The notes under the pieces: model-generated
Database searches by the model: none
The model's input: only the letters and a program-made list of their open reading frames with translations
Told to the model about the DNA's origin: nothing
Part shown: positions 3,735 to 46,308 of the stretch, piece by piece
How positions within the stretch are numbered: the stretch's first letter is position 1
Layout of the letters: each line of letters starts with the position of its first letter
Program-made: the position numbers and the translations under genes
DNA from: an archaeon
GTDB lineage: Archaea > B1Sed10-29 > JAJSAI01
Assembly (NCBI GenBank): GCA_024274695.1
Contig: JAJSAI010000006.1
Location: forward strand, 1-52,893
Length of the DNA: 52,893 nucleotides
Direction: 5' to 3'

Positions 3735-3819
3735 GCGGGAGTTGCCTAGCCAGGTCATGGCGCAGGGCTTAGGACCCTGTGGGTTAGTCCCGTCGAGGGT
3801 TCAAATCCCTCCTCCCGCA
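3735..3819 (+). tRNA. tRNA-Leu(UAG)
   Basis: GCGGGAG/CTCCCGC acceptor, CAGGG-CTTAGGA-CCCTG anticodon arm, long variable arm GGG-TTAGT-CCC. Confidence 0.93.
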
Positions 3820-9169: not shown

Positions 9170-9348
9170 GGGGCCGTGGGGTAGCCTGGCAGCCTTCCAG
9201 CTTCGGGAGGGAAACCGCCAGCGGGTATACCCGAAACCTTTGGTTCGGGATAATCCAAAAGGCGAAAGCCTTTTGGTATTTTCCTCTACCTTCCCGCGAC
9301 CGGAGCCCGGAAGAGCTGGCGAGCCGAGTTCAAATCTCGGCGGCCCCA
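9170..9348 (+). tRNA. tRNA-Pro(CGG) with 106-nt intron (9208-9313) at 37/38
   Basis: GGGGCCG/CGGCCCC; CCAGC-TTCGGG|intron|A-GCTGG; T-arm CCGAGTTCAAATCTCGG. Confidence 0.9.
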
Positions 9349-9617: not shown

Positions 9618-9618
9618 A

Positions 9619-9658
9619 GGGAAACCTCCAGCGGGTTTCCTCTACCTTCCAGCAACCG
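9619..9658 (+). repeat. dispersed hairpin element copy C (downstream of tRNA-Ala)
   Basis: GGAAACC-TCCAGCG-GGTTTCC then TCTACCTTCCAGCAACCG; related to 2467-2504, 9209-9304 and (reverse) 41011-41053. Confidence 0.6.
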
Positions 9659-9661
9659 AAA

Positions 9662-9720
9662 ATAAGGGGCCGCACCCCCCTTATCAACCCTCCTCACCAG
9701 AACGAGGGGCCGCACCCCTC
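9662..9720 (+). repeat. two short hairpins with identical AGGGGCCGCACCCC core
   Basis: AGGGGCCGCACCCC at 9665-9678 and 9705-9718, each a G4/C4 stem-loop. Confidence 0.65.
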
Positions 9721-41002: not shown

Positions 41003-41065
41003 TAGCCGGCCGGTGGCAGGAGGGTAGAGGGAACCCGCTGGAGGTTCCCCTTCCCGCTCCCGGCG
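41003..41065 (-). repeat. 63-bp insertion: reverse-orientation hairpin element D ending in duplicated tRNA-Ser 3' end
   Basis: Hairpin GGGAACC-CGCTGGA-GGTTCCC (41029-41049); TTCCCGCTCCCGGCG at 41051-41065 vs ATCCCACTCCCGGCG at 40988-41002. Confidence 0.6.
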
Positions 41066-41106
41066 TCATTAACAGCGCCCGCGGAGGACAGAAACCTTTT
41101 TAAACA

Positions 41107-46051: not shown

Positions 46052-46067
46052 CAGAATAAAGGATAGC

Positions 46068-46235
46068 GCGGGAGTCGCCTAGCCAGGTATGGCGCTGGAC
46101 TCAAGGAACCCTTTCCGCTGGGCGCGCGAAAGCGTTCACGGAAAAGTTGGGGACATCCAGTGGCTTAGTGTGTTTCGCCCTCCGAAGGACGGAGCGCGAG
46201 AACTGCCGCCGAGGGTTCAAATCCCTCCTCCCGCA
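46068..46235 (+). tRNA. tRNA-Leu(CAA) with two introns: 46106-46154 (37/38) and about 46170-46204 (variable arm)
   Basis: GCGGGAG/CTCCCGC; CTGGA-CTCAAG|intron|A-TCCAG; variable arm GGC-TTAGT|intron|GCC. Confidence 0.85.
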
Positions 46236-46308
46236 TCAAGAAAAAGGAAGGGGGTAACAGGGGGAAACCAATGGGTGTCCCCCGTTTCAAATCCCTCCTC
46301 CCGCACCA
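46236..46308 (+). repeat. ~70-bp insertion ending in a second tRNA-Leu 3' end with CCA
   Basis: TTCAAATCCCTCCTCCCGCA at 46216-46235 and exactly again at 46286-46305, the second followed by CCA. Confidence 0.7.

Follow-up and report, generated by a model that had tools for sequence, protein, structure and literature searches.

It has long been asked how the tRNA genes of archaea come by their introns, which often lie in T-loops or other unusual positions. The nearest precedents for the elements described here are the tRNA introns that transpose in Thermoproteales (Fujishima et al. 2010, cited in PMC3293823) and the integration of mobile DNA at a tRNA of Caldiarchaeum, accompanied by intron gain (PMC3293823), and neither account appears to describe the hairpin element. 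Like the hairpins, the Thermoproteales introns place one insert in several tRNAs and occupy non-canonical positions, and bulge-helix-bulge introns resemble hairpin insertions in that the tRNA splicing endonuclease could in principle excise either. Unlike such introns, the hairpins are also found antisense, intergenic, in tandem and nested, with flanking duplications, and they have one fold that is conserved across phyla and not confined to tRNA introns.

Several other systems consist of, or end in, short hairpins. REP/BIME sequences and the ends of RAYT/IS200-IS605 elements are likewise short hairpins with a conserved flank beside the stem and dispersed copies, and the likeness extends to base-triple-like contacts between stem and tail and to a plausible recognition as single strands. 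However, most carriers of the hairpins, the richest included, have no Y1_Tnp gene, the hairpins show duplications at their insertion site, and their conserved flank reads GGTTGCWGG on the reverse strand, whereas GTAG occurs in some subfamilies only; a tetranucleotide test gave GGTAGA in the subfamily of the window and GGTAATA, GATTCATA and others in the remaining subfamilies. MITEs are also very short, non-autonomous and multi-copy and cause target duplications, which among the hairpins accompany a minority of copies. They differ in that the hairpin occupies only the 5' part of its unit, with no apparent terminal inverted repeats spanning the whole, that its duplications are variable and often of about 20 nt, and that a non-systematic look met no parent transposon. 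The double-hairpin elements of mitochondria and the GC clusters of yeast are short mobile hairpins too, of other sequence and in another domain of life, and we know of no parallel third strand or tRNA-intron outcome in either. Casposon and CRISPR Cas1 integration places an insert between target duplications and may use a tRNA 3' end as target, but here the insert is one conserved hairpin, the length of the duplication is not fixed, and Cas1 is absent from 13 of 16 carriers. A literature search that included sequence strings, its scope leaving subscription papers and bioRxiv mostly aside, returned unrelated matches and no description of such an element, and at the gathering score Rfam 15 matched only tRNA in the window and rRNA or tRNA at the other loci, leaving the element itself without a match. 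The first-pass view that no named family fits is thus well supported, and we provisionally regard the family as new to Rfam and to the literature searched.

Copies in the window

The window, that is, the whole stretch of 52,893 nucleotides analysed, makes up contig C32 in the 825-kb genome of an archaeon (G000). The first-pass annotation, made from the letters alone, had reported four related hairpins, A to D, and all four were found, at tRNA introns or tRNA flanks. Copy C (9618-9657, + strand), a type I element, is a hairpin AGGGAAACC-TCCAGCG-GGTTTCCT with the tail CTACCTTCCAGCAACC, and its first base is the one right after the CCA of tRNA-Ala(TGC). Further downstream (9663-9720) two hairpins with the common core GGGGCCGCACCCC may represent another small hairpin repeat. 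Copy D (41012-41051, - strand), of the same type, lies antisense and adjoins tRNA-Ser(GGA). The compensatory A-T to G-C change said to separate C from D is real, and to the hairpin already described at D we add a broken duplicate of the tRNA-Ser(GGA) 3' end, which abuts the element (41052-41066, - strand; ACGCCGGGAGCGGGA versus ACGCCGGGAGTGGGA) and extends over 15 nt with one mismatch.

Copy B (9208-9301, + strand), in the intron of tRNA-Pro(CGG), is of type I and is divided in two by 53 inserted nucleotides (9227-9279, + strand). This insert, a three-way-junction-like module ATACC...GGTAT with two hairpins, interrupts the 3' arm of the element, in which the first loop base W=G pairs with the tail base W'=C, the rarer combination. 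The tRNA-Pro(CGG) of another genome (G010) has a site equal to that of copy B. Modules of the ATACC...GGTAT kind are seen again near type II copies on contigs C19 (L042) and C26 (L053) of the window's own genome. Copy A (2466-2503, + strand; AGGGGAGACACC-TAC-GGTTTCTCCCTCTACCCTCTTCC) stands first in the intron of tRNA-Pro(TGG), and both A and B begin at the 5' splice position of their introns. Copy A had been taken for a diverged member of the same set; it belongs instead to a second subtype, type II, with a TRC loop and near-identical relatives, namely a copy located 3' of a 23S rRNA (L071, 37/38) and another at L193 (36/38), followed by Hestiella and an Aciduliprofundum locus (35/38 each).

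A fifth copy, E (46246-46283, - strand), had been missed. It is a type II element, GGGGGACACC-CATT-GGTTTCCCCC-TGTTACCCCCTTCC, inserted antisense at the T-loop of a tRNA-Leu. On its 5' side stands a 20-nt duplicate of the tRNA-Leu 3' end, TGCGGGAGGAGGGATTTGAA (46286-46305, - strand), and the same 20 nt recur on its 3' side (46216-46235, - strand) within the intact tRNA-Leu, an intron-bearing gene that is retained at about 46067-46236. They also form the end of tRNA-Leu(TAG) (3800-3819). The intron-bearing tRNA-Leu was missed by ARAGORN, as run here, and by Rfam. Copies A and C show no clear flanking duplication. Elsewhere in the same genome two further type II copies, on C19 and C26, both follow GGGATCCGAA (an antisense T-loop), and at the C19 copy the 3' end of tRNA-Lys(CTT) is duplicated. 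All confident copies found in this genome are at a tRNA gene. The initial description, with every copy in a tRNA intron or right after a tRNA, does not extend to other archaea, in which about 70% of the copies collected are away from tRNAs.

That the hairpins form a family beyond chance, as first proposed, is borne out by their core CCAGCGGGT, with four occurrences against 0.35 expected from shuffles, and by copy C alone, which is matched at 40 of 40 positions (E = 3e-15) beside a tRNA in a genome from another family of the class (G018). Under the model of the wider family C scores 56 bits and D 50 bits, both being in the training set, and B, which is outside it, only 13 bits (E = 0.01).

Fold and subtypes

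The type I core measures about 40 nt (40 nt in C and D) and the core of the whole family about 38-40 nt, with the consensus purine arm-AACC-W-CCAGCG-GGTT-pyrimidine arm-spacer-CC-W'-GCAACC. The fold is supported by covariation. Across 55 distinct copies, 94.7% of the cells of the hairpin and of W-W' are paired, 7 of 9 pairs are doubly changed, and doubly changed cells number 96 against 31.5 in shuffles. W pairs with W' in 96% of these rows, and the two are complementary in 144 of the 150 copies collected.

The tail also follows the stem. Positions b1-b3 of the stem and t1-t3 of the tail covary in the same direction, that is, in parallel; the covariation score of b/t together with W-W' is 0.51, against 0.16 when shuffled and less than 0.2 when slid, and the pairs with the highest mutual information are b-b', b'-t, b-t and W-W', all in register. 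Because the tail covaries with the stem base by base in parallel, the alignment suggests a compact three-stranded fold of one strand, RNA or DNA, in which the tail would be a parallel third strand. The common b-b'-t sets, G-C-C and A-T-T, are as expected of a pyrimidine third strand parallel to a purine arm. Since A-T-A and C-C-G sets occur too, the exact triples are uncertain. In type I the loop is WCCAGCG and the end GCAACC, while in type II, to which copies A and E belong, the loop is TRC-like, the end is CTTCC-CTT, and a mirror rule holds, t being equal to b' in 7 of 7 cases at each of the first three positions. A three-stranded fold of about 40 nt found across archaeal phyla would be a tractable target for biochemistry.

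Distribution among genomes

With tRNA-Ala plus copy C as the query, 60 relatives were searched. Occupied and empty states of the locus, a comparison proposed at first pass, both exist, some relatives having tRNA-Ala without the element. G018 has additional copies besides the identical one, and in a distant archaeon (G041) a copy lies directly 3' of the tRNA-Ala in the 16S-23S spacer. A degenerate pattern applied to 85,462 genomes gave at least 118 loci, mostly archaeal among the matches listed, and the bacterial loci among these lack the extended stem. Likewise, 20 bacterial genomes with a pattern match yielded no model match better than E = 0.006 and none that was convincing, and five pattern matches in viral contigs came without a convincing stem. 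The archaeal carriers, mostly draft MAGs, belong to DPANN lineages, DHVE2/Aciduliprofundum, Thermoplasmata, Hydrothermarchaeota and Thermoproteota. With the family model, built from 55 copies, one DHVE2 genome (G062) has 64 matches and another 30, with 23, 20, 18, 15 and 13 elsewhere, and the copy load of the richest genomes is 18-64. Presence is patchy, with a strong model match in 16 of 397 archaeal genomes. Two single-contig genomes of a single genus, G116 and G260, probably Aciduliprofundum, are among those with copies. Larger intergenic palindromes with the ends CCTTCCCCAC...GTGGGGAAGG often enclose the copies of G062 (L237-L256).

Hestiella, a genus of Thermoproteota, has one locus with a nested pair (L087), and this 48-nt compound is identical at 48 of 48 positions to one in G018 (L066), which is of the window's class. 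Such identity may reflect either transfer between phyla or cross-contamination of MAGs.

Insertion at tRNA genes

Among 150 copies, 45 overlap a tRNA or lie within 150 nt of one, against about 6.5 expected, an approximately 7-fold enrichment that is somewhat inflated, as a few of these loci were fetched with a tRNA query; the association with tRNA genes suspected at first pass is confirmed. Within the T-loop the outcome depends on orientation. All eight antisense insertions (two of which share one locus) have a duplication of at least 15 nt, which leaves an intact tRNA, whereas 11 of 12 sense insertions, placed after a TTCGAA-like T-loop, have no long duplication, the twelfth showing a match to a neighbouring tRNA (p = 7e-5). 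The sense insertions, one of them in the tRNA-Gln of G008, look like introns interrupting the tRNA. In one genome (G072) a single element occupies one T-loop site in four different tRNAs, and some copies (A, B, L054, L055, L057, G072 and others) lie at a splice position of a tRNA whose exons join into a normal tRNA. In the predicted pre-tRNA fold of L055, TTCGAA pairs with TTCGAA across the exon-intron edges, and this modelled helix resembles the central helix of a bulge-helix-bulge; the folds of the G072 pre-tRNAs are not clear. The simplest reading is one of selection: sense insertions would survive where they are spliceable, and antisense insertions only where the tRNA is preserved by a duplication. 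Sense insertions are presumably spliced as introns.

Movement of the element

The elements are inserted in both orientations, nested in one another's loops and arranged in tandem arrays. Type I copies lie within the TAC loop of type II hairpins at L066, L070/L073 and L087, and the unoccupied form of that loop is found in copy A and L071. Tandem copies occur at L114, L188 and L182. Some arrays (L114, L094 and G041 contigs C30, C34, C40, C104 and C110) are located where contigs end and have apparently interrupted the assembly, with a period of 38 nt in G041. Direct repeats that abut the 5' edge and recur downstream with a score of at least 12 accompany 16.4% of 159 copies, against 0.6% of shuffled pairs; about 80% of the copies have no detectable flanking duplication. 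Duplications range from about 6 to more than 50 nt, perfect repeats being typically of 19-24 nt. At tRNAs they either start in the T-loop and reach the 3' end of the gene or cover the part between its 5' end and the D-loop (L167, L289). Elsewhere, an intergenic copy (L265) has a duplication of 24 nt, and a copy at the start of a gene (L115) has one of 28 nt that contains one mismatch. Between the 3' end of the element and the second repeat lie 0 to about 190 nt, which leaves the moving unit without a fixed 3' end.

Orientation, nesting, tandem arrays and flanking duplications lend good support to the mobile hairpin of the first-pass annotation. The alternative that it named, a structured RNA passing between the introns and the 3' flanks of tRNAs, is too narrow, since most copies collected from other archaea are away from tRNAs and insertions occur in both orientations. 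Movement at the level of DNA fits better; the initial interpretation is, overall, partly supported. We consider it probable that the hairpins make up an archaeal family of mobile elements, very short and non-autonomous, that move as DNA, and that their insertions in tRNA genes are either spliceable or rescued by a duplication.

Genes for a mover were sought among the carriers. Y1_Tnp (PF01797) is absent from 24 of 29 genomes, including that of the window, G062 with its 64 copies, G064, G065 and G076, and a Y1/RAYT transposase was rejected as partner, since most carriers are without the gene. Cas1 and reverse transcriptase are each present in three of 16 carriers and absent from 13, and a tyrosine recombinase was not detected in five of 16. 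As each is missing in several carriers, none can be the universal partner. No recurrent mobile-element protein was found beside the copies at 110 loci, and neighbouring proteins were set aside as partners, the largest clusters beside copies being ordinary housekeeping genes. No known mobilising family that was searched for thus fits all carriers. The mover would be an enzyme acting in trans, and the machinery would recognise the folded single strand.

The lack of an enzyme common to all carriers would also follow if no dedicated enzyme existed and the copies arose by template switching of the replication machinery at stalled stem-loops, the variable duplications and 3' ends being scars of repair. 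Such a process accounts for the variation in duplication length and 3' gap and for the many targets that are stem-loops. By itself, however, it leaves unexplained both the precise 5' boundary and a covarying fold conserved across phyla, and we regard it as a live alternative of low probability. The conserved fold may instead be kept for a function in the host, as a selected structured RNA (a small RNA or a trailer or leader signal) spread by duplication and horizontal transfer. The strong covariation with its apparent triple-strand geometry, the near-identity between phyla and the many copies that lie in sense where an intron begins or immediately 3' of a tRNA are in line with this. We nevertheless find it unlikely, as the copies lie in both orientations to genes, many of them antisense to their neighbours, form tandem and nested arrays, have flanking duplications, and occur in so patchy a set of archaeal genomes (16 of 397). 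Transposition of introns at the RNA level, in which an intron excised from one tRNA enters another by reverse splicing and then reaches the genome through reverse transcription and recombination, would explain the identical introns at one T-loop site of several G072 tRNAs and the elements that start at the splice site of anticodon-loop introns. It does not explain antisense, intergenic and nested copies or long duplications, 13 of 16 carriers are without reverse transcriptase, and this route is in our view quite improbable. Attachment-site scars of viruses or plasmids that integrate at the tRNA 3' end, suggested by 3'-end duplications that resemble attL/attR beside a retained intact tRNA, are very improbable, for what separates the repeats is the hairpin itself, over only about 40-250 nt, the same hairpins are also seen as introns, within D-loops, close to start codons and nested, and a tyrosine recombinase was not detected in five of 16 carriers.

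Returning to an element that moves as DNA, we hypothesize that the fold is kept as a single strand, with the WCCAGCG loop closed by AACC/GGTT and a 3' tail that pairs with the loop through W-W' and appears to run beside the stem, in parallel, as its third strand. The elements would insert, in either orientation, at various sites and into the loops of stem-loops, these being the T-loop, D-loop and anticodon loop of tRNA genes and the loops of other copies, and insertion would commonly duplicate about 20 nt on the 5' side. Within an essential tRNA gene only some insertions would persist: sense insertions because they may be removed as introns, the duplicated palindrome TTCGAA itself supplying, in the T-loop, the pairing for a bulge-helix-bulge-like splice structure, and antisense insertions only where, thanks to the duplication, a complete tRNA remains alongside. 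If so, a mobile hairpin would be a concrete agent of tRNA intron gain, its insertion could itself create the splice-site pairing, and the origin of such introns would become testable. More tentatively, and with more doubt than confidence, the elements may form a new class of ultra-short mobile DNA, in which a folded strand with a parallel third strand is moved by a putative archaeal machinery that cuts the loops of stem-loops, and spliceable introns are made on insertion. Since Rfam has no such family, it could now serve to annotate many tRNA introns and intergenic repeats of archaea.

Away from tRNAs, some copies of Pacearchaeota and Nanoarchaeota abut, as judged by eye, a start codon read from the opposite strand. 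A CAT near the 5' edge is found in 14 of 148 copies, only modestly above the control (38 of 715). At L079, L100, L181, L258, L287 and L288, all from these two lineages, the elements begin a few bases from CAT.
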